Positions 14,600 through 61,700 of a stretch of DNA of 64,000 bases are shown one piece after another. The first letter of the stretch is position 1; the number at the start of each line of letters is the position of its first letter. The position numbers and the translations under genes were made by a program. Source of the DNA: Sabellastarte sp. h YS-2021 (taxonomy: Eukaryota; Annelida; Polychaeta; Sabellida; Sabellidae). The notes below the pieces were generated by a model. It saw only the letters and a program-made list of their open reading frames with translations. It did no database searches and was not told the DNA's origin. The stretch lies in the NCBI GenBank assembly GCA_964017235.1, contig OZ024929.1:113879793-113943792 (forward strand). The letters run 5' to 3'.

Positions 14600-15450
14600 G
14601 GGGTGGACATATTATTTTTGCTTTTTCCGACGTCCGGACGCTTGGTTTCCGCTCACATGGCGGCCATTTTGAATTTTCAAATTTTTGCCAAAAATGGCAA
14701 AACACAAATTTGCTTGTATCTCCTTAACCGTGCGAGATAGAGCGATTTTGTCGAAATTTTCGACCCACAGGGTATTTGAAAAATGTACTCTTGGCAATTT
14801 TCAAAAAATTTTCCCCTCCCCAAAAATGGCGGCCATTTTGAATTTTCGAATTTTGGCCAAAAAAGGCAAAACACAAATTTGCTTCTATCTCCTTAACCAT
14901 GCGAGATAGAGCCATTTCGTCGAAATTTTCGACCCACAGGGTATCTGAGAAATGTACTCTTGGCAATTTTCAAAAAAATTTTCCTCTTCCCAAAAATGGC
15001 GGCCATTTTCAATTTTTGAATTTTTGCAAAAAATGACAATACACAACTTTGCTACTATCTCCTTAGCCGTGCGAGATAGAGTGATTTCGTCGAAATTTTC
15101 GACCCACAGGGTATCTGAGAAATGTACTCTTGGCAATTTGCAAAAAAAATTCCTCTTCCCACATATGGCGGCCATTTTGAATTTTCGAATTTTTGTCAAA
15201 TATCGGAAAAAAACAAATTTGCTTCTATCTCCTTAACCGTGCAAGATAGAACGATTTTGTCGAAATTTTCGACCCACAGGGTATCTGAGCAATGTACTCT
15301 TGGCAATTAAAAAACAATTTTCCTCTTCCCAAAAATGGCGGCCATTTTGAATTTTTGCCAAAAATTGAAAAACAGAAATTTGCTTCTATCTCCTTAACCA
15401 TGCAAGATAGAGTGATTTTGTCGAAATTATTGACCCAACCAATGCAAAAA
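14600..15450. repeat. Tandem array, about 170-bp unit, about 5 copies (family A)
   Basis: AAAATGGCGGCCATTTT recurs near 14655, 14824, 14995, 15164 and 15335, giving a period of about 168-171 bp. Each unit then carries CAAATTTGCT, TATCTCCTTAACC, GCGAGATAGAG, GTCGAAATTTTCGACCCACA, GGGTAT and AATGTACTCTTGGCAATT. The GCC-centred segment is an odd palindrome (AAAATGGC, G, GCCATTTT). All frames on both strands here are array read-through. Family B at 35262-35500 is a diverged relative. Confidence 0.85.
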
Positions 15451-15537
15451 GGCATGAAGTTGAAATAATTTACATGTATACTGATAAGTATTTAAGCATC
15501 ATTGATATATTTTACAAATGAAACAGGGTCTTGTAAG

Positions 15538-15907
15538 TAGTGCTGGGACGAGTTGAGTGAAGCTCAACAATTAGGGGTAACATCGATCTGTACAAGTGCA
15601 ACTCGAGTTTTTTAAAACGTCAATATTTAAAGCTGACACTTCACCAACACAATGTAAATATCCAATATTTTCAAAAATGTATTGTATTTTTACTTAATTC
15701 TGGCTTAAATCAATGAAGATTTAACATAAATTATATCGCGAAAACCATTTCCAGGTCAAAGTTTTGGCTAATGTACGGTTATGTAAAATATTTTCCAAAT
15801 TAATGGCTAACAAATGATCCCAAAAATTACTCGAGTTTAACTCGAGTTCAACTCACTTCTAACAGGTGATACTCAATCTGCCATTTTAGCTGGCGATCCC
15901 ACCACTA
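15538..15907. mobile_element. hAT-type MITE with 8-bp target duplication
   Basis: The termini are TAGTGCTGGGACGA on the left and GATCCCACCACTA on the right, which reads TAGTGGTGGGATC inverted. They are flanked by the exact 8-bp repeat CTTGTAAG (15530-15537 and 15908-15915). An 8-bp duplication and TAGTG ends are typical of hAT. The interior carries ACTCGAGTT(T/C)AACTCGAGTT-type palindromes and no transposase. Confidence 0.85.
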
Positions 15908-15915
15908 CTTGTAAG

Positions 15916-16190
15916 ACTACTGTACAATTTTTGCAAAAGGTTCATGGGGTGGATATTACACATGATAATGTGTGTTCTTCTATTCTATCCTGTTTCTATA
16001 TATATGTCGCAGCTACTGTCAACAGGGCGTCCTATTTCTAGTTTCATACACACATTCATACTATCAAGAACGGAAGCTGATTACATTTTGGGAGTGATCT
16101 GTTTCAAAATTGACTGTTTTATGAGTCATTTTCCCATAGGTTACCAACCAGAAACCTTAAAATTCATGTAAACCCCTTATTATATACTTA
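15916..16190. other. No recognised gene
   Basis: A short AT-rich spacer between the hAT MITE and array E. The frame at 15944-16171 is not recognisable. Confidence 0.5.
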
Positions 16191-16194
16191 AGTA

Positions 16195-16650
16195 TTGCAT
16201 TTAGAGCCATGAAAGGTATTGGGAGGTAGAAAGAAGCCATATGTGGAGGGTCTTAGAAAGCAAGTGAAATTCTCCCACCCCTATCCCAAGCTGGAATCAT
16301 AAAATAGCAGATTTTGCCATTTTGCCCTCTATCTCCCTTATTATTGCTTTTACAAGTTTGGAATGTATTAAGAAATATTGGGAAACCATATGAGGAGAGT
16401 CTATACAGCCTGTCAAATTTACCCTGAGCCCCCTTATGGGCTAAGCTGGGGTTATGAAATAGCAGATTTTGTCTTTTTGCCTTATATCGCCTTTGTTATT
16501 GCTTTTACGATTTTAGAATGTATTAAGAGGTATTGGGAAACCGTATGTGGAGAGAGTATATAGCCGGTCTACCCCCTGACCCCCTTATGGGTCAAATCAA
16601 ACTGGGGTTATAAAATAGGAGATTTTTTTTGTTTTTCCTTTATATCTCCT
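16195..16650. repeat. Tandem array, about 154-bp unit, under 3 copies (family E)
   Basis: AAATAGCAGATTTTG at about 16302 and 16457, and ATAGGAGATTTTTT near 16614, mark a period of about 154 bp. Units share CCTTATGGG, AAACTGGGGTTAT, TATCTCC.TTATTATTGCTTTTAC, GAATGTATTAAGA, TATTGGGAAACC and TATGTGGAG. The TATCTC..TTATTATTG phrase matches TAACTCGCTTATTATTGG in family D, so the two families are related there. Confidence 0.75.
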
Positions 16651-16941
16651 TAAAGGAGACTCTTATATTATTGTACACACGAAAAGCAAGGATACTAATC
16701 ATACTATGGATCATGCACGGTTATCATCCTCGTCCGTATACGCGTCCACAGAGATTTTTTGTGTACACATTTCTTTTGGGATTTCTTTTAAACTTGGCAA
16801 GTGGCTTGCTATGGCAGAGATCTGGCCACCCTATTCCTTTGGTAGCCCAGGAGTGAAAATTATGCTCCGGGGAGTCCAAAATATCAAAAAGTTTGATTAT
16901 TGCTTATATTCAAGCTATAGAGCACAGTTTCTTTCAGATTT

Positions 16942-17880
16942 ATTATCTCTGGCCGGGCTTTAGCCCGTCAGGGAGATTATAAAATGCATAATGTGTGTGC
17001 GTTTGTGCATTAGTGTGTCACGCAGATTTCTCCAAAACTACTACAGCTACAGATTTTTTGTAAATTAATTGTCCCAATGAATTTTCATGCCCTCGAAAAT
17101 TTTGTTGGTTTTGTGGACTTGGGCCTAAAGGTAAGCGAGTAATATCAATATTCGCTACTTTGGGTAAAGGACTCATAACTCAAAAACCATTGGAGTTAGA
17201 GCTTTTTCTTCAAATATGTTGTTCAGCTACTTTGTCCTTAGCTACAAGGTGGTACATAGTTTGGACGTCCATTGCGTGCCATAAGTGAGTAATAACTATT
17301 TTCTTATTTGTAGCAAAAACTGACAGAAGTAATTGTCAAATATCTTCAAAAGTATTAAAGTTAGGCAAATCTTTTCAAGTATGTTATTCATCTAGTTTTT
17401 GGCAAGCTATCACACAGTAAAGTTTTAGACCTGTTGCACATTGGATAGCTGAGAAATAGCTACTTTGACATTCTGACATTGTGCCTCCATCTCACAAGAA
17501 AATGTATATAACACTATCTTTAGTACATCTAATTTATATGGCGGGAGATAATTGTTTGCGTCAGAATGCTTGTTTTATATTTAGTTTGTGAATTGGTGGG
17601 TATGATGTCTCACCACCCTCTGGGATCAAAACCAAGCAAGTAATAACTATTTTAAGCCCAGGAGTCAAAATTGTGCTCTGGGGAGTTAAAAACATCAAAC
17701 ATTTCAACTAGTAACTTGAAAACTATTACATTTAGTGAATTTTGTTTGAATGTGTTATTCAGTTACTTTTGGGTCAGCTCTAACATAGTGAAATTGCAGA
17801 CCTGTAGCTCATTGCATGGCCGAGTAATAGCCACTTTGAGGTTCTCACTGTTGAGTAAATCAGTTGTAACTTGAAAACTA
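16942..17880. repeat. Element with 5' hairpin and degenerate about 180-bp repeats (family F)
   Basis: The hairpin at 16942-16980 has arms ATTATCTCTGGCCGGGC and GCCCGTCAGGGAGATTAT around a short loop. After it come degenerate units, each with a line such as TAACTCAAAAACCATTGGAG followed by TTAGAG, then TTTGT/CTTCAA, ATGT.GTTATTCA and AGCTACTTTTGG (near 17165, 17340 and 17715). A separate phrase, GCCCAGGAGTGAAAATTATG / GCCCAGGAGTCAAAATTGTG, occurs at 16847 and 17656. The right end runs directly into family D units. Confidence 0.6.
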
Positions 17881-18290
17881 TTGCAAAAGTGCTTATAACT
17901 CGCTTATTATTGGTCCTAGATGTTGGCAATATGAAACCAATCTATAAGAAATCATGGGTTAGGAATCTTCTGATGAGGTCAGATTTCAGGCCCCTCCTTC
18001 AAGGTCAAACGAGGATTGCCAAAGTTAGCAGTACTTATAACTCGCTTATTATTGGTCCCAGAGGTTTGCAAAGTGAAACCAACTTATAGGAAATCATGGG
18101 CTAGGAATCTTTTGATGTGGTCAGATTTGACCTTGGGTCCCTCCTTCAAGGTCAAACGAGGATAGTCAAACTTAAAAGTGCTTATAACTCACTTATTCTT
18201 GGTCCTATAGGTTTGCAATGTGAAACCAACTTATAGGTAATCATGGGCTGGGAATCTTGTGATGTGGTCAGATTTGACCTTGAATATTTG
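17880..18290. repeat. Short tandem array of the about 147-bp unit (family D, copy 1)
   Basis: ATAACTCGCTTATTATTGGT (or a close variant) occurs at about 17896, 18037 and 18184. The same unit forms the longer array at 28325-29200. Each unit has AAATCATGGG.TAGGAATCTT, GATGTGGTCAGATTTGACCT and CCTCCTTCAAGGTCAAACGA. Confidence 0.8.
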
Positions 18291-18575
18291 AATATTTTAT
18301 TTGGAAATATTGCTGGAAATCCCACAGAATTCCATGACCTCATGATTTCTAATTTACATATTTTATTTTAAAATATTGCTGGGAATACAAGACATGATAT
18401 TGTGATATTTTTACTATTATCCTCTAAATATGAGGTCTCGGTCGAAGCAGCATTTTTATTTAAAATATTGAAATGATGAGTGAAAAAATGCTGTGAAAAT
18501 CGATTGGATAATAGTGGGAGAAATGTTTTTTTGTGTGAAAATAATCTGGTAATCATACTGTTGGTAAATACATTT
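18290..18575. other. AT-rich spacer with weak short repeats
   Basis: AATATTGCTGG.AATAC/CCC phrases at about 18305 and 18373 suggest a degenerate direct repeat related to one at about 22150-22310. Nothing coding was seen. Confidence 0.35.
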
Positions 18576-18581
18576 TGCCCC

Positions 18582-19735
18582 ACAGCCCTTAAGGGCTGTC
18601 AGGGTATTGTTTTTACCCATGGTGTTCGGATGGGCAGGCGGGCGAGCGGTAACTGTAAGATGTAGGAAGTTGATACTTGGTAGGGGCATTGGTTAGGGGG
18701 TGTAGGTGTGCAACATCATGGTGTGACCTTGATTTAACATTTGACCTTGCCGCAGTGACCTTGAGTTTGAAAATTTTGTCCGGGCTATATCTCGGAAACC
18801 ATAGACTTGCTAGACTTGCAAGTCTTTGTATTTTTATTCCACCAAATCTGACATACATGGAATCATTATGAACCCATCATGATGGGTGGGGAAATTACTG
18901 AGGGATGAAATACAAATGTCAGCCCCACATTCTGGCCAAAAAGTCATTCAGTCCTCATATAATACCTAAGATAAAAGGACTTGAGGAAAGTCTAGTGTAG
19001 GAAGTTGATACTTGGTAGGGACATTGGTTGGTGGTGTAGGTGTGCAACATCATGGTGTGACCTTTATTTGACCTTTGACCTTGTTGTAGTGACCTTGACC
19101 TATAAAATCTTGTCCGGGCTATATCTCGGAAACCGTAAGCTGTAGGAAGTTGATTACTTGGTAGGGACATTGGTTAGGGGGTGTAGCTGTGCAACATTAT
19201 GGTGTGACCCTTATTTGACCTTTGACCTGGCCGTATTGACCTTGACCTATAAAATCTTGTCTGGGCCATATCTCAGAAAGCGTAAGGTGTAGGAAGTTGA
19301 TACTTAGTAGGGACATTGGTTGGGGGTTGCAGGTGTGCAACGTCATGGTGTGACCTTAATTTGACATTTGACCTTGCCGTAGTGACCTTGACCTTTAAAA
19401 TTTTGCCCAGGCAATATCTCTGAAACTGTAAGGTGTAGGAAGTTGATAGTTGGTAGGGACATTGCTTAGGGGTTGTAGGTGTGCATCATAGTTTTTAGTT
19501 TACTGATTAATGCTGTCATCTTGCTATTGAATTGTCTTGTTTTAATACTTTATCTTTACATACAATTTTTAGATGTTATTTTCTCTACCTAAACATCATT
19601 TGGAATTTAATATAATTGACACTACTCTAAAAGTATCCCGATCTTTGTACTGTTTCGCTACTTCTATATCTCATGGTGTTGAAAACTATTTCTCCAGGCT
19701 GTGAGGTACGGGCATCTCTGATGCTATTTTTATGC
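18582..19735. mobile_element. Minisatellite-bearing element, family C copy 1 (HINE/pearl-like)
   Basis: It opens with GCCCCACAGCCC, a palindrome CAGCCCTTAAGGGCTG and TCAGGGTATTGTTTT. A GC-rich stretch (GGGCAGGCGGGCGAGCGG) follows, then units of about 148 bp from about 18650 to 19480. Each unit contains GGTGTAGGAAGTTGATACTT, GGTAGGGACATTGG, GTGTGCAACATCATGGTGTG, ACCTTGATTTGACC, TTGACCTATAAAATCTTG and GGGCTATATCTC. The right end is CAGGCTGTGAGGTA plus a small hairpin GCATC-TCT-GATGC and T-rich DNA. It has no protein gene. The class assignment is by architecture only. Confidence 0.7.
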
Positions 19736-20023
19736 TTTATTTTTACATGATATCCACAAAATGATATATCTTTACAATTTCATTGTTACTTGTCATAATG
19801 CAGCTACTCAAATTTGTTACCCACCCAAGTAAGTCACCTTTTTCAAATGACAAGGTTGATCCACGGCATCATGGATTATAAGATTTACCTTATTTCCCCG
19901 GCATCCTAAAATATACTTGTATTAGCATTATTTGAGTGACTAATATGAGAATATATAGGAAGTCATTGAATCATGGGGGGGGGTTTCAAAGCAATATTTT
20001 AATATGTTGATAAAATGCTGCAT
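19736..20023. other. Spacer between two family C copies
   Basis: AT-rich, with a short G run at 19976-19983. No supported feature was seen. Confidence 0.5.
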
Positions 20024-21960
20024 TTTACCTCACAGCCCGTAAGGGTTGTCAGGGTATTGTTTTCATCCATGGGCGGGTGGGTGGCAAGAAAAGTTTGTCT
20101 GGGCTGCATCTCAGTAACTGTAACGTGTAGCAAGTTGATATTTGATAGGGACATTGGTTGGGGGGTGTAGGTGTGCAACGTCATTATGTGACCTTGATCT
20201 GACCTTTGACCTTGTGGTAGTGACCTTGAATTTGAAAATCTTGTCCGGGCTATATCTTGGAAACCTTAAGGTGTAGAAAGTTGATACTTGGTAGGGACAT
20301 TGGTTAGGGTTTTTTGTGTGTGCAATGTCATGGTGTGATCTTTATTTGACCTTGACCTATAAAATCTTTTCCAGGCTATATCTTGAAAACCGAAAGGTGT
20401 AGGAAGTTGATACTTGGTGGGGACATTAGTTGTAGGTGGTAGGTGTGCAACATCATTGTGTGACCCTGATTTGACCTTTGTCCTTGCAATAGTGACCTTG
20501 CCTATAAAATCTTGTTCAGGCTATATCTCAGAAACCATAAGGTGTATCCATTTGATACTTGATAGCGACATTGATTGGGGGTTGTAGGTGTGCAACATCA
20601 TGGTGTGATCTTGGTTTGACCTTTGACTTTGTCATATTTACCATGAGTTTTAAAATCTTGTCTAGGCTCTTGAATTCTGTAAGGTGTAGAAGGTAGACAC
20701 TGGGTAGGGACATTGGCTTGAGGGTGTAGGTGTGCATCATGGTGTGACTTTAACTTTGGCTCTGCCAAAGTGTGTTCACCTGCTATACTTGAGACATGTT
20801 TCTCTTATGACAAAAATCTATGGATTGCTGCAACTAATTATATATGTACTTTTACATAATTGTGCTATTTCCATTGACATCTGTTCCCCAGTTAATAAAT
20901 TTTACAGAGTCATAATTTTAAGTTTACTGATTAATGCTGTCATCTTGCTGTTGAATTGTCTTGTTTTAATACTTCATACTAGTGATCTCAGCAGGTATCC
21001 GAATATCCAGGTACCCGACCCCTGAATATTTACCCGAATCCGAAATCACATACCTGAGTACCCGAATCTAAGCTTTATTGCTGTCAATATCGCCCACGTT
21101 GGCTGACCGAGTATAGATATATCTCGACTTCATAAATTCACCAAAAAATTAAACTATTCAATTAAAATGCATATGAATATTGTTTTCTCACCCTTGTACA
21201 CTATTTATAGTATTATATTTGTCTTTTATTTTGGTTGTTTATGCACTGTCAAATGCCGGACCTCTTTGAAAATCGTCAGTATATTAACACAGTTACCTAA
21301 TTCCGAGTACATAAAATGCTGTATATTTGGCCATATAGCAGCATGCACTCCTTACATATATAAAGCACAATATTGTCATACAGTAGTTGATCATTTTACA
21401 TCAATAAAATTCACTTACGCACCTGAAAAGAAAATTAAAGTGTAAATTCCGAAACTACATTCGAGCAATAGTGTGATGCTTTCTTGATAGGTCATGTGAT
21501 TCCATTTTTATGGACACTGCAATAAACAAACAACCGTGCAAATACAGAAGTCTACTTTATTTAACATTTCTTCCGTGTCCTACTGTTTTGAATGCAAAAA
21601 TGGTGGCCGACAAAGAATAAAGCAAATGGTTGGATCGCAGTTTTTGTGTAAGTTCAAGTTTGTAAATGTAGAGAGTTTTGTAGCATCAGCTATTATCGCC
21701 CATTGGCGCGAGTACCCGGGTACCCGCCTGTTGAAATCACTACCTACCCGGTCCCAGTAAAAAGGGTATATTGAGAACACTACTTCATACATATATTTTC
21801 TTTCACTTAGACATTATTTTCTCTACTTAAACAGTATTTGGACCTTTATATGACTGACACTGCTCTGCAAGTATCCCAATCTTTATACTGTTTCACTACT
21901 TCTATATCTTGTTGAAAACTATTTCCCCAGGCTGTGGGGTATGGGCATCTCTGATGCTAT
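20024..21960. mobile_element. Family C copy 2, split by a hAT MITE
   Basis: It has the same plan as copy 1: ACCTCACAGCCCGTAAGGG start, a GGGCGGGTGGGTGG tract, and about 148-bp units from about 20090 to 20750. The tail contains CTGTTGAATTGTCTTGTTTT and TATTTTCTCTACTTAAACA and ends CAGGCTGTGGGGTATGG, then GCATC-TCT-GATGC. The tail is interrupted at 20980-21782 by a hAT element. Removing that insert restores the order seen in copy 3 (62040-62110). Confidence 0.7.
20980..21782. mobile_element. Non-autonomous hAT element nested in family C copy 2
   Basis: The ends are TAGTGATCTCAGCAGGTATC and, inverted on the right, TAGTGTTCTCAATATACCC. They are flanked by the exact 8-bp repeat CTTCATAC (20972-20979 and 21783-21790). 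Subterminal blocks on both sides are rich in GGTACCCG/TACCCGAAT phrases. Frames at 21167-21445 and 21536-21760 show no transposase features, so it depends on a transposase supplied elsewhere. Confidence 0.85.
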
Positions 21961-21969
21961 TTTTACAAT

Positions 21970-22540
21970 TCTAACATTCGATTTACATTTAATTCGCGAC
22001 CACAGCATCTCACTACCAGTAACTCACAACCACATATCACTAGCTAGCCACCTGAATAAATAGTGGTTAATATTGAAAAGTATAAGCAAATATCAATATG
22101 TACACAATAAAATATTTAAAACAGAATATATGGAGGACATTTATTTCTATTACTAGACTATCATTAGGAAACCCCGCTGAATTCCATGGCAACACACTGG
22201 TAGAAGTCTGTGACTTATTTGATCTTCAAGCACTAGCAGTACTTGTATTTATAAAATATTGTTGTGGAACCCCACAGATTTCTGTGACCTTGAATACTTT
22301 GTTGATTTTATTTTACTGTCAATGACAGACAACTGTTTGTGAAATAAGAATGCCATGTACACAGAAATTGAACAAAAGAAAAAAATAAAATATTGGTAAA
22401 TTATTTATTGTATCCTATTTATTCTTGTGAAATAAACAACATATTGTCGAAAGCCGGCAATACAAGGATATGTATTAATTGGTAGTGAGATGTGGTAACG
22501 AGAATATGGTAGCAAGTTGCCATGGTTGTGAGTTCTGCAT
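21970..22540. other. Degenerate repeat-like DNA
   Basis: TCTCACTACCAGTAACTCAC (about 22006) and GGTAGTGAGATGTGGTAACG (about 22482) are weakly inverted. GGAAACCCCGCTGAATTCCA (22160) resembles GGAAATCCCACAGAATTCCA (18313). These may be remains of an old element. No gene was seen. Confidence 0.3.
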
Positions 22541-22559
22541 TATCTACAAACTGAACAAT

Positions 22560-23082: not shown

Positions 23083-23400
23083 GACAGCGCATTATCAACA
23101 AACTGAACCTCATTGTGTTCAAGGCATTAAAGGGTGATGCCTCGACTACATTCAATCCTTGCTTTCTATAAACCAACTACCAAGACCACTACGTTCACGT
23201 GACAAAATGTACAAACTAAAAGATGATCGATGGAAACTGAAAACCAAGGGATACCGATCTTTTCACATTGCAGCACCTCGCTTTTGGAATGGTCTACCTG
23301 ATGACGTCCACAACATCGAACTGGATTTAAATGGCTTCAAGAAAGACTTAAAACCTTTCTATTTAAGAGTGCTTTTATCGGAGTAGCACAGTGATTAGCC
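23083..23400 (+). pseudogene. Second LINE ORF2 C-terminal fragment
   Basis: The frame at 23159-23386 contains LPRPLRSRD, then KGYRSFHIAAPRFWNGLPDD and LNGFKKDLKPFYLR. This is the C-terminal block of CR1/L2-like ORF2 (RS...GxRaFsvaaPrlWNsLP...fKk.LKt.LF). Upstream, in another frame, is KLNLIVFKALKG. It starts directly after the tail of the preceding LINE copy, so it is a separate insertion or a rearrangement. Confidence 0.7.
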
Positions 23401-23419
23401 AATCAGTGACTAGAATTGC

Positions 23420-27985: not shown

Positions 27986-27991
27986 ATTATT

Positions 27992-29245
27992 GTATCCACC
28001 GGAAGCATCCGGTGGATACTTTGGTTTAGCGTTCGCTACGCCGCCGCCGCTGCCGCCGCCGCCGTCACGCGTAGAGAGATTTTCGGCGTTAACGCTCTAA
28101 GAGGAAAACAACAGCAGCTAGGTTCACCAAATTTGCAGGATATCTTCATTGGGGGGTAAGCTTCTCTGGGAAGGAAAATAGCCTCATTCTGAAAAACAAG
28201 ATGGCTGCCACGAGCATTTCTTTGAAAATAATCTACATTTTTCTACTGGCTGTTCCTCATAGGTAGAAGGTTGAATCTCTTCATAGGTGATATGTATGAC
28301 ACATATACATGTCCTCTACAACCTTGCACACATAGGAAATCATGGGCTGGGAATCTTCTGGTGTAGTCGGATTTGACCTTGGGCCCCTCCTTCGAGGTCA
28401 AACGAGGATAGCCAAACTTAAAAGTGCTTATAACTCGCTTATTATTGATCCCAGTGGTTTGGGATGGTAAACCAACATACAGGAAATCATGGGCGGGGAA
28501 TCTTCTGGCATGGTCGGATTTGATCTTGGGCCCCTCCTTCAAGGTCAAACGAGGATAGCCAAAGGTAAAAGTGCCTATAACTTGCTTATTATTGGACTTA
28601 GAGGTTTGGGATGGTAAACCAACCTATAGGAAATCATGGGCTGGGAATCTTCTGGCATGGTTGGATTTGACCTTGGGCCTCTCCTTCAAGGTCAAACGAG
28701 GACAGCCAAACTTAAAAGTGCTTATAACTCGCTTATTATTGGTCCTAGAGGTTTGGCATGGTAAACCAGCATATAGGAAATCATGGGCTGGGAATCTTCT
28801 GGTGTGGTTGGATTTGACCTTGGGTCCCTCCTTCAAGGTCAAACGAGGATAGCCAAAGGTAAAAGTGCCTATAACTCGCTTATTATTGGTCCTAGAGGTT
28901 TGGGATGGTAAACCAACATATAGGAAATCATGGGTTGGGAATCTTCTGGTGTGGTCGGATTTGACCTTGGGCCCCTCCTTGAAGGTTAAATGAGGACAGC
29001 CAAACTTAAAAGTGCTTATAACTCGCTTATTATTGGTCCTAGATGTTTGGGATGGTAAACCAACATATAAGAAATCATGGGCTGGGAATCTTCTGGTGTG
29101 GTCGCATTTGACCTTGGGCCCCTCCTTGAAGGTCAAATGAGGACAGCCAAACTTAAAAGTGCTTATAACTCGCTTATTATTGGTCCTAGAGGTTTTGGTG
29201 CATTGTCTTTATGGTGGATACAATTTGCATCGGTTTTCCGATGCG
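27992..29245. mobile_element. Minisatellite-bearing element, family D copy 2 (HINE/pearl-like)
   Basis: The 5' hairpin (27992-28019) has 12-bp perfect arms, GTATCCACCGGA and its reverse complement, around AGCA. A GCC/GCT trinucleotide tract (28039-28070) and a unique stretch with AGAGAGATTTTCGGCGTTAA follow. The tandem array at 28325-29200 comes next. The right end repeats one hairpin arm (GGTGGATAC, 29213-29221), then a perfect 7-bp hairpin GCATCGG-TTTT-CCGATGC (29227-29244). It has no protein gene. Confidence 0.75.
28325..29200. repeat. Tandem array, about 147-bp unit, about 6 copies (family D)
   Basis: ATAACTCGCTTATTATTG variants fall at about 28429, 28577, 28723, 28870, 29018 and 29165, so the unit is 146-148 bp. 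Every unit carries the inverted pair TTTGACCTTG and CAAGGTCAAA around 11 nt. Since 147 is divisible by 3, the array leaves long open frames on both strands (for example 28624-29136 minus). Those are artefacts of periodicity. Confidence 0.9.
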
Positions 29246-29524
29246 CTAGGTCTAGTTTTAATTCATTTTATTTTGTTTTAAAAAGGTAGAAACTTTTAGC
29301 TATAACTAAATTTGTAAAACGTTTGTCCTTCAATCCCTTAAAGGTTAACCATAGGTAATAGATGTCATTTTTGTGTATTTTGGGGTGTGCTGCAAAGATA
29401 TTTAATAAAATTAGCCTAACAGAAAACTTCTTTTCTCTTTTTCCTCATAAATGGTTATCAGCATAAAATTAAGAGGTGCTGTATGTGTGTGTGAGTCAGT
29501 ACTGAAATGTCTAGTTTTCTCAGC

Positions 29525-32769: not shown

Positions 32770-33800
32770 ATTTTGACCCCATCTGCTGTTTAAAACGGCA
32801 GTCCGCCATTTTAAATGGCAGTCCGCTGTTTTAAACAGCAGGCCGCCGTTTTAAATGTCTCAGCCAACTAGATAACAGGAACACATACTTCACATGGTAG
32901 TATGCACTTATGACATATGTACCGACAGATTTTAATGTGTCACCCAGCGATATTTCAAGAGAAGAAGCATTCTACTGATTGATGTAATTGCAATTTATAG
33001 CCCTCCTTTTACTTGCATTGTCTTGTTTATACACAGTTGCATTTGTTTAAGGTTGTCTTTAGGAAAAAAATCACTAATCAGGTGTTTAAAGTACATTGCT
33101 GTTTGAAATTCATTCTTTTGTGAATTGTCCTGTGATTTTTACATCAAAGGGGGTAAATCTAATGAACTGATTATCTTTCCCTGTGAACTAATCACCAGAA
33201 AAAGGCATGGCTTCCACAAATTCAATCTGTCATGTTAAATCCAACCTACATATTAGACAATACATCAGAAAATAATCCTACATTTAAAGAATGGCTTTTC
33301 ACTGACCAGTCTTTTAATAACAGTGTGGAAGTCATCCCTATTCTGTTGATTTGTTAACCATTATTTAAGTGATGACTTAATTGGATTGTCCCTATTGTTA
33401 GGATATCACAAAATTATCTTTGACTGAAACAATTGACTTGGAAGTGTTAAAGCTATTTGAATACTTGTTAAGATTATATTTTTATTTTATATTATTATTA
33501 TTATATATTGATATAATTATATTGCTATATAATATTTAATTTTTTTTAAATTTATAAGCTTAAATGACAAATAATGGAAGGAAATTAAATCATTTTCATG
33601 CAACATTAAACATATATCCCACAGAAGACAAAAAATAATCCAATAGCTAACAAACAGTTATAGCTAGAAAAAGTTAAAATGGTTGGGGGCTGGAATCCAC
33701 TGTTTTAAATGGCTCAGCCATTTAGAATCATTATTTGAACCCAGTGAATATATAAATGGCAGGGTCTGTCATTTAAAACGGCTTGGGGGTCAAAACGGCA
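32770..33800. mobile_element. Foldback-like element with serial TTTTAAA palindromes
   Basis: The ends carry TTTTGACCCC (32770-32779) and the inverted GGGGGTCAAAA near 33785-33795. The left subterminal block (32783-32862) is a run of palindromic units about 21-23 nt apart: GCTGTTTAAAACGGC, GCCATTTTAAATGGC, GCTGTTTTAAACAGC, GCCGTTTTAAATG. Matching but worn units lie at 33698-33782. The centre is AT-rich with no transposase. The exact ends are uncertain. Confidence 0.5.
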
Positions 33801-35261: not shown

Positions 35262-35505
35262 TGCAAAAATGTGTGTATCTTGGAAACCGTACCAGCTAAA
35301 GTGATTTCCGGCTGAATTTTTGGCCCAGAGACTTATGCAGAGTCATCTGCACCTTTGTCAATAAATCATTCTTGGCCATTTTTGGCTGCCATCTTGAATT
35401 AGTCCGGAAAACGCAAAAATGTGTTTATTTCAGAAACGGTGGGAGATAGATCAATCTAGGCTGAATGTTTTACCCAGAGGGTATACACAGAGTTATCTGC
35501 AAAGA
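35262..35505. repeat. Two tandem copies of a repeat related to family A (family B)
   Basis: Two units of about 140 bp share GCAAAAATGTGT, AT.T..GAAACGGT/GAAACCGT, GGCTGAAT.TTT, CCCAGAG and GAGT(C/T)ATCTGCA. The TTTTTGGCTGCCATCTTGAA segment corresponds to the ATGGCGGCCATTTTGAATTT segment of family A. The phrase GGGAGATAGAT also matches family A. Confidence 0.65.
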
Positions 35506-35837
35506 AGAAAAACACATCATAAACAGAGCATGACACAGTAATTTTGGCCAGAGCACTATTGCTCATTTGGACGCTTTGTTTTTGCTCTGCAAAAATATCT
35601 TTCTCTTGTAAAGCGATACTCTCAGTAGCTTTTTTCGAATTTTTTTTGTGTTTTCTACAAAGTTCAAAGTTGAGATTTATGGCTAGGTAACACCTTTCCT
35701 TATAGTCGTATGTGTACATATTTAATTTCTGTTTGTTTATCTCATTCTTATGGCTCCAAAAGGGGATATTGTATCAGGGTAGTACTACATGTTCATCCAT
35801 TCCCCTCATCTCCACCAGCATATTTATTGTACAGTTA

Positions 35838-36568
35838 GTGGTTGGAGTGTGGATCAATTCCGATTTTTGCTTGTACAAACATGTTCAGAATGTCTGCAAA
35901 AGTTGTTTTGTGCAACTCCATGACTTTAGACATGTCAGGCAATTTCTTACTCATGATGCTTCTGTACTTGTGGCCAATGCTTTTGTTAGTAGTCAGTTGG
36001 ATTACTGTAACTCACTTTTCAGGAGTCTCTCTAAGTTCAGTCTTCATAAATTACAGTGCATCCAAAATAGTGCAGCTAGAGTCGTATCAAATACTAGTAG
36101 ATACACTAGTATAACTCCTGTGCATAAGAAATTGCATTGGCTTCCTGTTGAACATCTGTCAGTCTTTAAAACAGCCACCCTTGTTTAAAAGTTTCTTTAC
36201 AGTCTGTTTTCTGAAGTATTTTGCTCCATATATCTCTTCCTACAGTTCTTACAGCACCAGGCGCAGTCAGAGTCTTGGTAATTTCCTTGTTCCAAGGTTC
36301 CAACCCTCTATCCATAAATCTGTCAAGTAGTTTGGTTATAGTCTTGCTTTTGATGCCCCGACTGTTTGGAATGTTCTTCCTGATGAGATTCCTGCGTCCC
36401 CCTCCATAGCCTAGTCTTACTCACCCCCTGGTGTTTTCTGTGGTGCTTGGCCTTTTTTATGTACCTCGATACTGAAATTGGTTGACTGGTTTGTTTTGTT
36501 GCACTTTAGAGTCCTCTTTGCATAGGGGAGGATAGTGTTATAAAAGTCCAATTAGAATTAGGATTGGT
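35838..36568 (+). pseudogene. LINE 3' end (CR1/L2-like ORF2 C-terminus)
   Basis: The frame through 36188 reads VGVWINSDFCLYKHVQNVCK, FLTHDASVLVANAFVSSQLD followed by YCNSLF, LHKLQCIQNSAARVVSNTSR and ITPVHKKLHWLPVEHLSVFK. These are the standard blocks of the region after the reverse transcriptase palm. Shifted frames continue with APYISS and FDAPTVWNVLPDEI. It ends near TATAAAAGTCCAATTAGAAT, a worn LINE 3' terminus. Frameshifts make it dead. Confidence 0.85.
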
Positions 36569-36919: not shown

Positions 36920-37770
36920 AAGTCCTTTTGCAGGATGAAATATTTACAGATGAAATGAAATGAAAATGAGTGGGATGAACAATCACTGGTATAGAGTTGG
37001 TGAGAAATGTTTGGATTGGCAGATATATTTATGGACTGCATCAAAGATACCTAGATTCTTTTCATAGCTTAAAATATTACTTCCGTAAAGTAGGATTTCT
37101 GGTGAGATTTCGATATTTCTTGCTATTATCAATGCATTTTGTAAAATGTGATGGATATTGTCATACAAGGGGCAATGTAGAAAAAATTATACCAGGTAAA
37201 ATATTGTTAAGGTATGTTGGACAAAAGTTGTTGGAGATTTTAAATACCATTTTTAGTACATGTATTTCTCTTCTAGTGGCAAGAGGAATCCAGCCAGTTT
37301 CTTTGTACAAATTAGAAGTGTTTGATCTAGCAGGGGCTCCAGTTACAGCTCTCATTGCTTCTACTACCATGTGGTCAAGTTTAGACAGGACACTGATTGA
37401 TGCTCCAGCCCAGATTATATAAGCATATTCCATGATAGGTCTAATGTAAGAGAAAAATATTTTTTCAATGGCCTTCCTGTTTAATTTGTTCTTTAAAAAC
37501 TTCAGAATACCAATAAATCTTGAACATTTGTCCATTTAAAACTTTCTATATGTTGATGCCATTTAAGATTGTGTGAGATCCACAGTCCTATGTGTTAGTG
37601 AGCCCGCACATGTGCTATAGGCATATTATAAAATATAAGTCTTGGATGACTATTCTGCACATGTGGTTTCAGTGATACAACCATACTCTCAGTTTTTGAT
37701 GGACTAAATGTCACAAGCCACTTCTTTGCCCATTCTTTGATGTTCTTTAATATATGATCCAGTTATAAAT
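36920..37770 (-). pseudogene. LINE reverse transcriptase fragment, antisense
   Basis: On the minus strand from 37765: HILKNIKEWAKKWLVTFSPS followed by KTESM (the W...W.v.FnpsKTe block), an in-frame stop, then HIGLWISHNLKWHQHI (the LG...s..l.W..Hi block). The frame at 37535-37161 follows, with LNRKAIEKIFFSYIRPIMEY followed by AYIIWAG, EAMRAVTGAPARSNTSNLYK followed by ETGW, and REIHVLKMVFKI. This order is typical of non-LTR ORF2 C-termini in jockey/CR1-like clades. Stops show it is inactive. Confidence 0.85.
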
Positions 37771-39802: not shown

Positions 39803-40060
39803 TTACCCTCGTCCCCTGAAGGGGAGGGGTGAGGGTATCATACTTAGGTCTGTATGTCCGGCAATGTATATAACTCGAAAACTCTACATGGATCTGAGTC
39901 ACAGTTTTACACAAGGTTTTGCCTACCTGTGGCTGACACTTTGTGCTGTCTCAGACATTGCTTGTTTTACATTTGTGCAGAGTCTGCACTGCAGACATTT
40001 AAAGGCAGTTGGTCTAAACTGAAACAATTCCGGTCAGTGTTGATGGGAAAGTAAGCTAAA
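39803..40060. repeat. Element with 5' hairpin (family H)
   Basis: A hairpin at about 39806-39839 has arms TACCCTCGTCCCC and GGGGTGAGGGTA. It is followed by GTCTGTATGTCCGGCAATG and TAACTCGAAAACTCTACATG, a version of the box shared by the tandem families. Only one unit is present and no 3' end was found, so it is truncated or solo. Confidence 0.45.
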
Positions 40061-40783: not shown

Positions 40784-43700
40784 GTTAGTGTCCAGTCCGG
40801 TCATTGGCTGTGCTCTTTTGATTGTTTGGTAACCAGGTCTCATAGTTTATGATATATTTTGATAAAAAAAAAAGATTTTTAAATTGACAATTTTATTTCA
40901 AACATATGATCTGAAACTGAAAGTATATTTGTTCATAGTGGTACAAATGTTTTTTTCTTGTTTTGATATACTGTTATGTTAATTTTTAAGCAAACCTATG
41001 CTAATTTTCAAGACCAGTAATTAAAACTAATTGACGACAAATGACATAGCATTAATAATTACAATATCATGCAAAAAAATTTTAATGCATCTTGTTTGTT
41101 AAAAAATTGCTGATGTTAAGAAAGCATTTATAAACTGGAAACATGCATTTTCTTCAAACATCAGAATTTATTTACATTTTGAAATTTTAACAATTAATTT
41201 ATACAGTATTGTATTCATTATCTTTATTTTCAAATCTTTAGTTGCTTTTTTGAAAAGTATTTCTGTTACATTCAAATAGTTGTCTTGTGTAATACAAGAA
41301 AAGGTCCATTAAATATTGCACAGTCCAGAGACTGGTCCATCCCAAGAATTTTTTTTCTGTCGAAATACCAATATTATGACCAAAATTTGGAAAAAGTAAA
41401 GGACAGACTAATGGAAACTATAAATACCCTTGTGCTCTAATGTCAGTGTACTAAACATGCCATTATACAAATATGTCCAAAGCAAATTGTATTTCAAACT
41501 TAAATCATAAAACATAATATTGTTGGAGTTTTAAATACTCAAACCTGATATTTATACAGTATCTTCATTTTGCTCATATTTGTATGTCAGCTGATGAAAT
41601 TACTGTCAAACCACTGTCACCTTGTGATGTGTCCATTGATCTATGTCCTCAAGTTCACATGTTATACTGTACAAGTTCAAATTTTCACCAGACATTACTT
41701 TTACATATTTTAACAAACTAGCTTATAGTGAAAAACTGAAAAATAATTTCTTGTGAAATTTTAGTACGTATTAACAGGAAACTAACAATTAGTGAAAATT
41801 AATTCTAGTAAATTTGTTAAAAATGATGAATTGTTAAATTTTTCTTCTTGCTAAAATTTCTGCTTGTACAGTATTTGGCATGGATACTAAGGGTGAAAAG
41901 GTTAAAAGTGAAAACCGAACCTACATGGAGTGACCATATACAGAAGTGTTTGCAGCATCCAAAACTCTTGTGTTCTCCAGAGGCCTTTGAAAGGATGCTC
42001 ATACCCCTTTTTCTTGTGAAAATATATATATATATATATATATGTTACATGTATATATATGTACAGATGTACAACACTACTACAATATCTTTTGCAAAGA
42101 GCTTCATCCCTGAAGCTGTTTTATTTAAGTTTTAAAACATATTCTCAAAGTAACAGGACAATATGTGATGCAAAGAGTATCCATTTCCATCTGTAAACCA
42201 CAGAAATATTGTAATGTACTCCGTTCATTTGTTAGATGGAGGTGTTTAAATCAGCATTTTAGCTATTAGAGTAAGAAATGTAAAATTCGCCACATATCTG
42301 AAATTCGCCACATGTAAAAATACTAATAAAATAAATGAATTGTGGTGAGATTTGTTGAATGTATAGTAAATTAAGGCTTTTTGAACTGAAAAATACCAAT
42401 TTTGAGACAAAAACATCATTTTTTTCATAAAATTAACTAAGGTTTTAGAGGTGGCGAATTTTAGATTCCTGGCGAATTTTAGATTTCTTACTCTATATGA
42501 GTAAATTTTTACAAAATGCTTGGCTAATGTCAAAAATTTTATTTTCCATTTACAGCAATGGCATAATTCAAAGGAAATAGAGCTTAACACATCATAACAA
42601 AGTGTCCTGATACTTTGCCTGTTGGGGGATTTATAGTTTGATAAAGTATTTGTTGCTTATCCAAACTTGGTGTTACTGTACATATTTCATAAGAAAACTA
42701 TTACTTCAGTTTTGGTTTGTTATCAATTTCTTTTCAGAAACTTTTTGCTGCCAGAGTTCTGAGAGAATAATATTTTACTTGTTCTATTTTGAACCTGTGT
42801 TCATAGTTGATTTTTTGGAGAAGATTTAGTCCATAGTAAGACAGAATGAAAGCATCACTTTCAGAACCAAGATTATCTTTGACATTTACAAACTAAACGT
42901 AATCGGTGAAATGTGATTAATTTATATCAATTTTCAACAAAATTTTCCTTATTTTAGCAGTTATGACAACTTTTATTGCATCAAGATTTCTTTACCAACC
43001 GCATATTTTGCTTCCAGTCGGTGTATGCTAAAATGTGGTTTCCCTAAATTCGGATTATTTTTTTCGAAACGCCCGGCTGGTTTTCATTGTTGTAAACGCC
43101 CATCCCCAACTTTTGCAAATATTTGGTCACATTGCCAATGGGCGTTACAGAGTGCGGCACCAGTATATGTCTGAAGTAATGATTTTTAACTCCAGCCCAT
43201 AAAGGCTGGGGTTATAGTCGTCCCCTGCGCCTCCGGGCGGTGGCGGCGGCGGCGGGCATAAAGCTTGTGGGTGTTCCACAGCCTAAACCACTAGACGGAT
43301 TTTCACCAAATTTTCAGGAAATGTTTACCCCAAGAGGATCTAGAGCTGATTAGGTTTTGGGGATATCCGGTAACAACTGTTGCCATGGCAACACTTTTAA
43401 GATTTTTGGGTCTTAATCTTTGTGGGTGTTCCACAGCCTAAACCTCTGCATGGATTTTCACCAAATTTTCAGGATATGTTTAGCCCAAGAGGATCTACAG
43501 CTGATTAGGTTTTGGGGGGTATCCAGTGGCAACTGTTGCCATGGCAGCACTTTTTCGGGTCTTAAAGTTTGCTCTAAAATCTTTAATGTTTTCTGTCAAC
43601 AAATTTTCGGGTCTTATAGTTTGCTCTAAAATCTTTAATGTTTTCTGTAACCTAAAATATTACAGCTAGCTTCATCAGATTTGGCTTCAAAATATGAAAA

Positions 43701-55700: not shown

Positions 55701-58700
55701 ACTGTAAAGTGTTGTCTGTTCAATATAATCAACAGCATTTATCAGTGCTGATGGACTGAGTACATGGGGAAAAGAGAATAATTAATTAGTACTTAGATCT
55801 GGTATGAACAAAGTTAATTCCTGTAGCTGAATCTATTTGAAAGGAAATGCATTTTCTGCTACAGTGGTGCCAAGTACTTATTCACATTTAAAAATTTCCA
55901 AGCTCAATAAAATTATTTAACTGGTCCAGGTTGTGACAAATAGCCAAAGATGTAAGCATAAAAAATATGTATATTCAGAAAGTTGAAAGTTTTAAATATT
56001 CCATGAAATCTGTGAATGTAGAAAATTTTTTTTTCTTCAGTTGTTTTATAATTACCATGTCATGTCTCTAGCACAATAGACAGTGTATTAGAAGTATTTA
56101 GGTTAATATGTTCATCTCCCAATTAGTATAATATCATGTTAAAGAAAGATTTTAGAAAACTATCGAGGTTCAGTAAGGTATAGCATCAGCAATCTGAGCA
56201 CTGTTGATCTGCGTAATTTGGACCATGTATTGTAGATTGACCTGCATAGTCAATTCATCATTTTTACCTCCACCAAGAAGGTATTAAATTTGTTACAGTT
56301 TGTCTGTTTGTCCTTTTGTTTGTTGGCAGGATTAAGTGAATACTACTGGTTAAATCTTCATGAAAAAAATGAGAAGATGGGTCCCGGTCTAAATATAAGA
56401 TCCCAATAAATTTTGAGCGTCATCAGGATCACCACCTGGATACCAAAAAAATATCAAAGATTGGGATTCTCCCGTTTACTTATTATTGAGCCATGTTAAA
56501 AGAAAGCATGCATGCTTTGGCAGAGGTCTGTGCTCTCTGTGTGCTCTTGTTTAGTTTTAGACATTAATAACTGTAATTACTTTGTCAAAAATCATTAATA
56601 ACTGTAATTACTTTGTCAAAAATTTGTGCCACAACGTTTCTTCCTCCCACAATCATTTTTGATCAACAGTTAGGTCTGAAACCCTTTTCAACAATTTTTT
56701 AATTACAATTTAAGAAGAAGTGAGCAAAATTAACAGCGCTAATAGCTGTAATACTTTGCTCTCTTTTACAGAATATACCAAGAGGGAGAAAAACATTTAT
56801 TCCCAAGGCTGGAACTGTAATGACTTTTGCAGAGAAAAAATATGTTCATAGTTGTATTTTAAGCTGGAAATATTATTTCAGATATAACTGAAATTGGCTG
56901 ATAAAGGGTCTCTTGAGAAGCTTTGTTGTGACAAAAGTCAGATGACTTTTTAATTGTTCATTGTAGAATGATGAGTCTTAAATTTTTAGATCCATAATTT
57001 TCAAAACATTGAAAAATTAAGTGAATAAAAGAAGTAATAAGTAATAACAAACACATGTATTAAGTTAGTTTATGCCATAGTATAAGCATTGAACCGTGGA
57101 TGTGTATTACCAGTAAAGCTGTATGTTGCACAATAATTTAAATATCTTCTATTGGCATATCATCACTGTATTACAGTACCATTGCTTCCTCTTAAATGCT
57201 GAACAGAACCTATAAAAATATCAGTGAAACATCTCATCAGACTGATTGTTGCATTTTTGTGCTAACTTGCTTGGATTCATTGCTGGATAGTTTCTTTTCT
57301 TTTATGACACAAAAAAACTTGTACCAGGAAATGAATGCTACAAATTCAGTGAAGGCTTCCTGTTGAGACATTGTGTTCAATCCCTTTTTGGTTTGTCACT
57401 TGAATACAGCCAATTAAGCCAATCCATCAAGATTTGCGACCAACCCCTTTGTAATATCAGAAACCAACTTGCATGGAATCTTAAAGTAGAACAGAGTGAG
57501 TTTATTGCTTGAAAAGTCCCTTACTAAATTATTTCAGTGGTTGTCATTTTGTGTTGTTAAATCTTTGTTTATCAGACAGGCATTTTAACATGAAAGCATT
57601 TGGCAGAGAATGCAAACTATGTCCTGAATAAGTCAAAGTGAATTCAAGCGCCGAAATTCATTTCCCTGATTTAGAGGGCTGCTGACAAATGACACTGCTG
57701 TTAATGACATCACAACACCTCCGAAATATTTATCTCTGGTATTTGGCCCCAAGATACATCATCAAGGTCTCTTGCCTGCAGGCTGAATAAACTAGATTCC
57801 CACCATTCCACTTCTATTTATCTTTTAAATCCCCAAAGGTCTTTAACAAGAGCTGCTATAGATTAGCCCTGCTGTGGACAGGCTTGTTTTTGTCAACGAC
57901 TATAGATCTGATGTAAGGCACTTTTTTCCTCTTTGTTTCCCTTTTAAGTGTGTCTAGTATGTTGTCTGGGCCATTATAACATTCCCTCCTCATTTCAAAG
58001 TTGTATCATCTAGCTTGTATCACTGTTCTGAATCTGTGTGTATTGTTCCATGTTGTCTTTATTGAAAATTATGATTCTGAGAGACATTATTTATGTTCCA
58101 TTGAGGATCACTGATAGAGACAGATGTCTCCTACTTTATTAAATGCAGCAGAATAATATTTCCATAATTAAGAGGACTACCTTCATTTGGCTTTCTGATA
58201 GTGGTTGGCATGTGGTAGGAATGTTTCAGAGCTTTGATCAGGGAATCTGCAATATGGCTAATAATGAGCTTGTTTGATTCTCATATGTCTCATCTTCAAC
58301 TGAAGAGTAAAAAAAATGTACCACAACTTTAGTGGTATGCTTTAATAAATTAAGTTTGTGTGATTGGAAAACATTCAAATCTTATACTCTGCTTTTTCAA
58401 ACACCTTTCTTTTATACATAATTTTGGTGTTCTTTGTAATCAGATTTTCTGCTGGCAAGTTGTTCATTGAGTATTGCATCTTCTGTTACAGTAACTGTCA
58501 AACTGCTTCATTCTGTACATCAAAGTGGATTTGGCGTTTTTTCTTGTCACATTCATTCTTTCTTTAGTGCTTGAATTTGTTCTCATTCAAATGTCCAAAG
58601 TACAAGTTTAATATTCTTGATGAAATACTTTGGTAAGGTTTTTTGACAAGGTTTGCCTAAGTTTAATCTGTTGCTTGCACTTGATTTTTTAAGGAGTGGG

Positions 58701-61700
58701 GTGAAAAATGTGATAGACTATTTTCTTTCAAAACATATAGTTTTATGATTTTTATCAATATCCATTTAAATTGTGTTAATTTATTACTTCTAAATAAATG
58801 TTATTTCTTCATTTTATGTTTTGACTGGAGGTATAAATGACAGTATTTTTGAGTATGTAGTGTGTACTTTTGGGGGTTGCATTCCCTTATGTCTTTCTAT
58901 CATTCAGATTTATTCTATTGTTGAAAAATTATATCATGCAAAAAACCATGGCTAATTTTCTAATATGTAATGAGCAAAATGTATTTTTATATGCAGGGAA
59001 TAAACTTTATTTTTAAACCACATAAATGAGGAGAAAATGTGTCAGATATCAGTAAATATATATTTCTCCATTTATTTAGTAAAACATTCATTTTTCTTTG
59101 GAATAAATCAACCTCACACTTGAAGAGAAAAAAATAGTCAGTATGGCAAAAAATACTATCTGTATTTTAATTGTGGTGTCAAAATGATTGTTGTTTCTTT
59201 GCACATTCACTCCTGTGTATTCAGATCCCAAACTGTCAGGTCCTCTGGGTCAAAGACTGATGTCTGTAGTTGGAAATGCAAGGGGAGACAATGTAAAGCC
59301 AGTTGATGTCCAGGCGCAAGTCATAGACAAATCCATTGGTATAAAAGCAGAGACTGTACACAGACACCATCTACCAGAGGACACAGAGGGAGACCCAAAT
59401 AAAGTTATCTTACCCATTCTAGTCATTGCCTGCAATAGACCTTCAATTAATGTCAACCTCGACCAACTCATACGGTAGGACCTTACGATGTATACAAGTG
59501 TACTTGTGTAATGCTGTAGGGGTGACATCGCATTAAATTGGTTTCACTGTTGAACTTGGCCTTTTTTGTCAAGAGTATTGACATTTTGTTTCAGGGGCAA
59601 AATCCTGTTAAATTTCTCTTTATTGCGTTTAGCCACGTTACTGTCAGAATGAACGCAGCCAACTGGCTGCTGGGTATTGTATATCATCTGTGTGATAATG
59701 AAATCCTTTATTAACTTTTTAATTCACTGGTACTTCTTTGGGATATATTTATTATGTGGCAGTTGTCATGTATATGCTAGTATGTTCACCCAAACAGATG
59801 TATCAGTGATGTTAAACTAATTTTATCCAAACTATTGGATTCTTCATATTTTTTTAAATATACTAAAGAAGTGTGATAATATTATCTGAATAATAAAGAA
59901 AGAACTGCAGAGCAGTCAGAAAAGCAATCAGAAAAAAAAACACTAGCAGTGCATTATTAGAGTAGTGCACTGTTAATGAAAGTCTTGAGACCCCCAAAAA
60001 TGGAAAAAAAGGTGATCTATAGAAGCTCAAACCTCAGAGAGACCTCGGACTGGACAAAAAAAAATAAATAAAAACAAGCATCAATTAGTTTGTAAATTGT
60101 AATAAAGTATTGCCATTGGATATTAATTCCATATTTAAACTTTATTTTGCACTCCCAACAAACATAAATTACAATTTAGCTCCCATGCGAAGGAATAATA
60201 ATGGTTGTCAAATCTTACAAACAGTAATTAAAATTGCAACAACTAAAAATATTTTTTTTAAAGTTTTGTGTTATAGAACTTTTTTTTTGAATACACCTGA
60301 TGTCTCAAAAGTTATTTTGATTGCTAGCCAAGTATCACTATCTCATGTGAACTCTTGCCTCATTTCTCTAGACTTAGTATTTTGGATGTAGAGTTACTTG
60401 TTACTGTGTTTTAGAATAAGACCATCAGTGGAGCGTTTTCCTATCATTGTCTCACAAGATTGCGGTCACTCTCAAACTGCTGATGTCATCAAATCTTACG
60501 GAGACCAGGTTACTCATATAATGGTAAAGCTGATGTTTTATTGACTTTTTACCCCACAGCCCTTAAGGGCTGTCGGGGTATTGTTTTCACCCATGGTGTC
60601 CGGATGGGTTGGTGGGCGGGCAGGGGGCGGGAAAAGTTTGTCCGGCCTGTATCTCAGAAACTGTAAGCGGTAAGAAGTTGATACTTGGTAGGGACATTGG
60701 TTAGGGGGTGTAGGTGTGCAGCATCATGGTGTGACCTTGATTTGACCTTTGACCTTGCCGTAGTGACCTTGACCTATAAAATCTTGTCCGGGCTATATCT
60801 CGGAAACCGTGAGGTGTAGGAAGTTGATATTTGGTAAGGACATTGGTTAGGGGTTGTAGGTGTGCAATGTCATGGCATGACCTTGATTTGACTTTGCTGT
60901 AGTGACCTTGACTTATAAAATCTTGTCCAGGCTATATCTCGGCAACCATAAGGTGTAGGAAGTTGATACTTGGTAGGGACATTGGTTAGACGGTGTAGTT
61001 GTGCAATGACATGGTGTGACCCTTATTTAACCTTTGACCATGCCATGGTGACCTTGACCTATAAAATCTTGGCCGGGCTATAACTCAGAAACTGTAAGGT
61101 GTAGGAAGTTGATATTAGGTAGGGACATTGGCTAGGGTGTGTAGATATAAAACGTCATGGTGTGACCTTGATTTGACCTTTGACCTTCCCGTAGTGACCT
61201 TGACCTATAATGCCTTGTTCGGGCTATATCTCAGAAACCATAAGGTGTAGGAAGTTGATATTTGGTAGGGACATTGGTTGGGTGTTATAGGTGTGCAACG
61301 TCATGGTGTGACCTGGATTTGACCTTTGATCTTGCATATCTGATGCTATTGTATCTCTCTACAGGGATATCTGATACTATTTTATATCTCTTATATCTTA
61401 TATCTTTTTACTTGAATCTTGGTTGTTGCATCTTTGAGTATCTTTTGATGTAGATTAAACAATGTTAAAGTGATATTAGAATTTATTAAGGGCTTTACTT
61501 TTGCAACTTCCCATTGTAACAGATGGTATTTCATTAAGTGAGCCATAGGTTTTGCCCCAACACCACACATAAGCATGTTTTGTCACATCTGTATGTATGG
61601 GTAATATTCAAAAACATTTAAACCGTAATTCGACCATACAAAACAAATATTAAAATGGGAAAGGACTTAAATCTTCACGCAAATGTATCAGGTCACTTTG

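Follow-up and report, generated by a model that had tools for sequence, protein, structure and literature searches.

A short core common to otherwise dissimilar tandem repeats within HINE-like elements of Sabellastarte

We have found that the tandem arrays in a stretch of 64,000 nucleotides of the Sabellastarte genome (the window, meaning the whole stretch analysed; contig OZ024929.1, 113,879,793-113,943,792) occupy the centre of HINE-like elements, which are non-autonomous and related to the Helentron/Helitron rolling-circle transposons, as seen directly for families A, C, D and F, and that repeat families which are otherwise dissimilar have a core in common. The consensus of this core is roughly TA(T/A)CTC-N2-AAAC-N9-TA(GAG), which in the A/B superfamily becomes a perfect 6-11-6 palindrome of strict spacing. 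Judging from the sequences, we propose, with about even confidence, that source elements which propagate retain the core as a cis-acting DNA site, and that copies would drift freely after insertion. That unlike families have one core in common is an argument for part of the repeat being retained to serve the element's own spread, and the 23-30 bases of this core form a target open to direct testing.

The initial annotation regarded the arrays as tandem repeats, and the arrays are indeed real, but it missed that they are the interiors of HINE-like transposons. Arrays were located by TRF, which recovered most of those named earlier, and boxes were listed when at least four arm positions were paired. 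The features of the window are the following.

14599..16041, + strand: A element, with a 5' hairpin remnant (GGGGTGGACATATTATTTTTGC), a GTCCG-rich stretch, the array, the 3' subterminal GGGGTGGATATTACA region and the end TTTCTAG, then T
14657..15437, + strand: central array of A, TRF period 169-170, 4.7 copies
14717, 14886, 15056 (exact) and 15226, 15387 (right arm AAGATA), + strand: A boxes, from the pattern listing
16181..16665, + strand: E array, with left arm and spacer TATCTC-ccttattattg at 16330 and weaker ones at 16181, 16485 and 16643
16944..17380, + strand: HINE-like left end of F, with a hairpin at 16944-16979, a GT-rich microsatellite and cores at 17027, 17176 and 17341
17885..18282, + strand: D array of 147 bp, with cores TAACTC-gcttattattg-GTCCTA or near it at 17896, 18038 and 18185
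18995..20668, + strand: C arrays of 145-146 bp at 18995-19489 and 20250-20668, from TRF and the profile
27991..29249, + strand: D element with both ends, array at 28328-29195, cores at 28431-29166
35276..35448, + strand: B, two degenerate units of the A/B superfamily, with boxes at 35276 and 35426 (T4-G20 wobble at 35426)
39804..39893, + strand: H, with a left hairpin at 39804-39837 and one core-like TAACTC-gaaaactctac at 39871, sub-threshold
43187..43600, + strand: G, with a left hairpin at 43187-43214, a GGC-rich microsatellite and about two units by eye
60550..61335, + strand: C element, with a 5' hairpin at 60550-60580 and the array at 60638-61335

The HINE-like plan consists of a terminal hairpin, a microsatellite, the array and then, most clearly in D, a 3' subterminal repeat, a hairpin and CTAG. 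D at 28 kb is the cleanest such element of the window. At its left end, the 5' subTIR TGTATCCACC at 27991 and its inverted copy GGTGGATAC span 27991-28019 and are followed by a CCG microsatellite; at its right end stand the 3' subTIR GGTGGATACA at 29213, the hairpin GCATCGG-TTTT-CCGATGC and CTAG ending at 29249. Left hairpins of the HINE kind are also present in C (60550), F (16944), H (39804) and G (43187), and the microsatellite after the left hairpin, judged by eye, is CCG in D, GTCCG in A, GGC in G and GT-rich in F. A matching 3' subTIR was looked for in the C element at 60 kb and not found, no HINE-like ends were seen in the surroundings of B and E, and the hairpin survey gave none for several C and D arrays besides those named.

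For family A, the 3' flank is common to the window copy and three further loci (L004, L013 and L016). A 263-base query from this flank yielded 720 candidates in the genome, and the best 40 of the 720, spread over 11 contigs, show 96-100% identity. The 3' end reads TTTCTAG or TTTCGAG in seven copies read and in the window, L004 departing near the end, and a T directly follows it in 8 of the 9 copies read, few of them with the 5' flank in view. Whole 5' ends, found in L013 and L042, form the hairpin TTATGTCCACCCC..GGGGTGGACATA, with the 5' subTIR and its nearby inverted copy as TATGTCCACCCC/GGGGTGGACATA; the window copy retains one arm, and GGGGTGGACAT is seen again close to the 3' end. By eye, a 3' subTIR and palindrome are present as well, farther from the end than in the published HINE plan. 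The window copy of A also carries an insertion of ~370 bases at about 15537-15907, with ends TAGTGCTGGGA...TCCCACCACTA and CTTGTAAG on both flanks, which resembles a small hAT-type element with an 8-base target duplication. Four of the six window frames of at least 120 amino acids were searched (6609-6974, 35712-36188, 36997-37422 and 37161-37535), and none has a Pfam match at E 0.001.

The families were also combined into a profile of 34 columns, in part with window families as training data; it gives 40 matches at a score of at least 9 in the window, 39 of them on the + strand, versus 1 in the reversed window. The 6-11-6 boxes described earlier in A, F and B are confirmed at 14717-15387, at 17176 (TAACTC/GAGTTA) and, with one wobble, at 35426. 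Equally, the pairing in C is only partial: its cores, TATCTC-N11-GGTGTA or near it, stand at 19122, 19269, 19415, 20107, 20253, 20379 and 20524, and in the C element at 60650, 60796, 60935, 61081 and 61227. D (17896-18185, 28431-29166) and E (16330) retain the left arm and the spacer, as had been noted, and the right arm of the E array is not palindromic. H and G, on the other hand, had been read as loose 6-11-6 fits; both fall below the profile threshold, and the supposed box of G is its left-end hairpin.

Several other features of the units were observed. The terminal unit of the A array reads TATCTT/AAGATA in L004 (2493) and L016 (4024) and TATCTC/AAGATA in L013 and the window, and an internal unit of L040 (1966) likewise reads TATCTT/AAGATA. 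D units have palindromes of their own, of the CCTATAGGTT..AACCTCTAGG and TTTGACCTTG..CAAGGTCAAA type, unlike the 6-11-6 box (L011 4063-4096, window 28372-28402). The string TCAAGGTCA/TGACCTTGA, which resembles an ERR/SF-1 nuclear-receptor half-site, has 23 occurrences in the window (6+17) and none in the reversed window; most of them fall in C and D units (17999-20355, 28539-28841, 60732-61203).

We have counted the box and core patterns over the whole genome (1.786 Gb in 647 contigs), with the same pattern read backwards as control. TATCTC-N11-GAGATA is found at 146,149 places versus 91 for the control; that is, the box is real and beyond chance. With the 29 spacers from 12 to 40, the same arms give 18,832 places in sum (control 1,795), and two other palindromic repeats are prominent among the 100 of these places listed. 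The F/G16-type core TANCTNNNAAANTNTTNNAGNTAG occurs at 96,294+99,738 places (control 6+9) and the C-type core TATCTCNNAAACNNTNNGGTGTAG at 33,531+33,290 (control 0+1), so that the three core types sum to ~409,000 places, overlaps included. One dense array (G000:C1:1570435-1573983) has TATCTC and GAGATA at a distance of ~29 bases (TATCTCAATTTCTTGAGATATTAAGTCAATTTTTTGAGATA) and seems to have no relation to the HINE core. The search of the 64-kb window against Rfam families, hammerhead included, gave 0 matches at the gathering score, and the core strings (14-mers, and 12-mers by title) have no match in a repeat context in literature text, the scope of this search being text as distinct from figures, supplements and Repbase.

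To compare the families, eleven consensus units were anchored on the box, with E represented by the E16 consensus from L016. Mean identity among the eleven is 0.47-0.83 in the four six-column blocks spanning the box against a background of 0.26, values which are inflated at invariant columns because the cores were aligned by best match. A, B, L033 and L028 belong together in one superfamily, with identities of 0.74-0.91 in the box, 0.64-0.91 over the next 22 bases, 0.40-0.60 far from it and 0.29-0.80 upstream. The earlier statement that the families share little does not hold for A and B: between their consensus units, identity reaches 0.91 in the 22 bases that follow the box, against 0.60 farther on and 0.41 upstream.

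Because anchoring bias was to be avoided, we have also used a leave-one-group-out profile, in which the profile is derived from the other groups and each array is compared with 300 dinucleotide shuffles. The p value is below 1/300 for A, for three C arrays (C, C60 and C16), and for F13 and F13b; it is 0.003 for F11, 0.03 for G16, 0.030 for D, 0.037 for D11 and 0.053 for E16, and the D-like array D11b fails the test (p 0.39). The 11 negative arrays give 0.27-0.97 with the all-group profile and 200 shuffles. In this test 12 of the 30 arrays served as members and 11 as negatives, picked after the array survey had been seen; seven arrays were unused (L011 3759, L013 4121, L013 4393, L016 3248, and window 14657, 17885 and 20347). 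According to these p values, support for the core is good in A/B, C and the F-like families and marginal in D and E. Both the consensus comparison and this test bear out a conserved box inside drifting repeats, and also the alternative that the initial annotation had offered, one very old common ancestor.

Plain descent is the main rival. It holds that shared ancestry is all there is: the families would go back to one old HINE array, and the core would be its last recognisable stretch, without function. We consider it possible, though rather less than evenly so. In favour of descent, likeness within the A/B superfamily extends over the entire unit, and in the 22 bases that follow the box the F-like families (F13, F11, G16 and F) are still 0.27-0.64 identical to this superfamily. 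In the box itself, the F-like families are 0.43-0.70 identical to it, with 0.12-0.44 upstream and 0.12-0.38 farther on. What descent accommodates poorly is C, and the main contrast of the core rests on this family. Relative to the A/B superfamily, C is 0.65-0.83 identical inside the box, yet it stays around the background of 0.26 outside (0.09-0.23 after the box, 0.22-0.32 before it), a pattern not expected from uniform drift. Part of what is observed would also arise from common ancestry and chance retention.

Drift inside families was measured as divergence from the family consensus, box versus rest, with all windows of the unit ranked, in five families. L028-L039 were left out of the divergence analyses and the array survey because they had been chosen for holding the exact box, and L004, picked by its box, enters a separate run on A but not the comparison of the five families. 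The divergence of box and rest is 0.028/0.051 in A, 0.100/0.109 in C, 0.058/0.065 in D, 0.051/0.058 in G16 and 0.149/0.181 in F13, and the box ranks for low divergence 14 of 146, 38 of 124, 49 of 125, 42 of 111 and 22 of 133, respectively. In the separate run on A (57 units), the values are 0.034/0.056 with rank 13 of 147. Outside CpG sites, A shows a larger contrast (0.013/0.048). A search for selection on individual copies gave no more than a slight trend (box below the family mean in 5 of 5 families, mean z -0.65). That is, the box drifts within a family almost like the rest, as descent also predicts, so the conservation is mainly between families: the box exceeds the background there, but is hardly favoured within them. 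Since copies drift nearly uniformly after insertion, the conservation between families points to the source elements.

The orientation of the core is in part established: it lies in one orientation relative to the 5' end of the element, where that end was found. By eye, the left-end hairpin is 5' of the core strand in all 7 arrays where a hairpin was taken to be that end (window D at 28 kb, window C at 60 kb, L011 D, L013 F13, L013 A, L042 A and L016 G16), and the A remnant and F of the window show the same polarity. Other hairpins, some of them 3' of the array (L011 1689, L016 677, window 21002), were by eye not taken as left ends and were left uncounted, and several arrays showed none. One polarity is also predicted by plain descent.

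Returning to the cis-acting site, the source elements would retain the core as it would aid their own propagation as DNA, and inserted copies would drift freely, which would leave the constraint visible among lineages rather than among copies. We infer that the core is read as DNA; a DNA-level binding site at this place is possible, and its reader might be the replication or transposition machinery of the element itself, unless the core acts as a seed for array growth. A narrower version, which we think unlikely, is that the Helentron replication protein, or an accessory protein, would recognise the core in an iteron-like manner, which would make the HINE central repeats functional parts of the element and not passenger satellites. 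The genome contains 24 matches to Helitron_like_N, several of which lie in long frames. One Rep-helicase frame of ~2240 amino acids (L048 3557 to L049 270) contains DUF6570, Helitron_like_N and PIF1 helicase domains, and is possibly an intact autonomous Helitron. Arrays with a similar core, CAG-TATCTC-AAAAATGGCTT-GACAGATT, start at L049 1519, ~1.2 kb downstream of the frame on the same strand. No ends matching the HINE elements were identified at this one locus, and the array may be a neighbour of that element rather than a part of it.

A second type of reader would be a host protein, centromere- or transcription-factor-like, whose putative binding site favours the elements that carry it. The strict spacing and the fixed arms of A/B suit such a protein, and AGATAG in these arms resembles a GATA-factor site. 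This arm, however, is missing from the consensus units of C, D, E16, F13, F11 and F, and the 40 scored A copies are spread over 11 contigs; we find this reading quite improbable.

The arms had also been thought to form a hairpin kept by compensatory changes, and selected pairing in RNA or single-stranded DNA would fit either a processing hairpin or a stem in rolling-circle replication. In the consensus units, the arms pair fully in the A/B superfamily and F, at 5 of 6 positions with a wobble in G16, and at 2-4 of 6 in D, F11, F13 and E16. When one sequence per family is folded and compared with shuffles, A (z -4.2), B (-2.8) and F (-2.3) do better, but C (+0.65), D (+1.48), F13 (+1.64) and K (+1.27) do not. 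Since only A, B and F of the seven fold beyond shuffles, the hairpin is a property of A/B and F, and not of the shared core.

The arm counts in the genome lead in the same direction. The double change of F, TAACTC/GAGTTA, is real as a family-level state in F, but few places carry it genome-wide (112, control 66). The other altered combinations are TAACTC/GAGATA (346+340, control 51+40), TATTTC/GAGATA (1322+1247, control 176+167), TATTTC/GAAATA (1141, control 391, with a box-like loop in 3 of 50 places listed), TATCTT/GAGATA (8997+8575, control 113+120) and TATCTT/AAGATA (7217, control 628). Doubles exceed independence in relative terms at pairs 3-21 and 4-20, with absolute numbers that are tiny beside 146,149. 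The excess of TATCTT/AAGATA speaks for selected pairing at first sight; however, 41 of the 50 places listed carry the loop of family A, and in L004 and L016 the combination stands in the terminal unit of the element, so that most of the excess seems to go back to one inherited state. Independence of the single changes predicts ~530 such doubles, and the remaining fifth, ~1,300, comes to ~670 once the control is subtracted.

A similar picture emerges from 276 core-like units, a set in which related units are counted many times and the threshold of 14 of 20 admits some chance matches. Doubles at the six pairs number 0, 2, 15, 3, 3 and 22, versus 0.4, 0.8, 4.8, 2.3, 1.5 and 8.4 expected. The excesses at pairs 3-21 and 6-18 would favour a hairpin; yet 13 of the 15 doubles at 3-21 are Watson-Crick and 11 of these 13 are F-like, and 11 of the 22 at 6-18 are unpaired. 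The family-context box listing was compiled without L002, L003, L005-L008 (overlapping L001/L004) and L025-L027, and the 276-unit set also without L045-L047. Among 100 places listed for the F/G16 pattern (one 58-kb stretch, mostly one array), pair 3-21 is T-A in 94, A-T in 1 and an unpaired T-T in 5. Doubles are thus largely inherited family states or unpaired, and a hairpin kept by covariation across families is not borne out. Taken together, the six altered combinations, the 276 units and the folding of seven families reject a compensatory hairpin as a general rule, and we regard selected pairing as very improbable. A prokaryotic or viral origin is rejected, for the oriented box occurs in 1 stretch of the prokaryote genome collection and 2 of the viral contigs, as a single box each without an array, in what we have the impression is coding sequence.

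A short box retained in otherwise variable satellite units is familiar from CENP-B-box-like motifs; in contrast to those satellites, the arrays here are the interiors of dispersed elements. The central repeats of HINEs are known, and so is, from the oyster, a precedent for segments common to unlike repeats. In the elements of Drosophila and a mite, DINE-1/HINE has subTIRs, an inverted repeat near the 5' subTIR, a microsatellite, central repeats, a 3' stem-loop and T-rich insertion sites, and the description in that source mentions no core common to the central repeats of different families (PMC4067079). Most satellite DNA of the Pacific oyster is described as Helitron-related (PMC8268682). Cg_HINE of the oyster, with Cg170/HindIII-type satellites, is described as having a left flank with a subTIR, an inverted copy and a microsatellite (GTCY/GTCC in several), a central array, and a right flank with a subTIR and a palindrome (PMC7492417). 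The HINE-like elements of the window follow this plan. In the same account, CL1, CL2, CL10 and CL13 of the Pacific oyster share two conserved segments with CL4 and are dissimilar in the rest (PMC7492417). In Sabellastarte, the core extends over three or more groups that are otherwise dissimilar, at some 400,000 places, and it bears on the question why Helitron-related elements carry central repeats.
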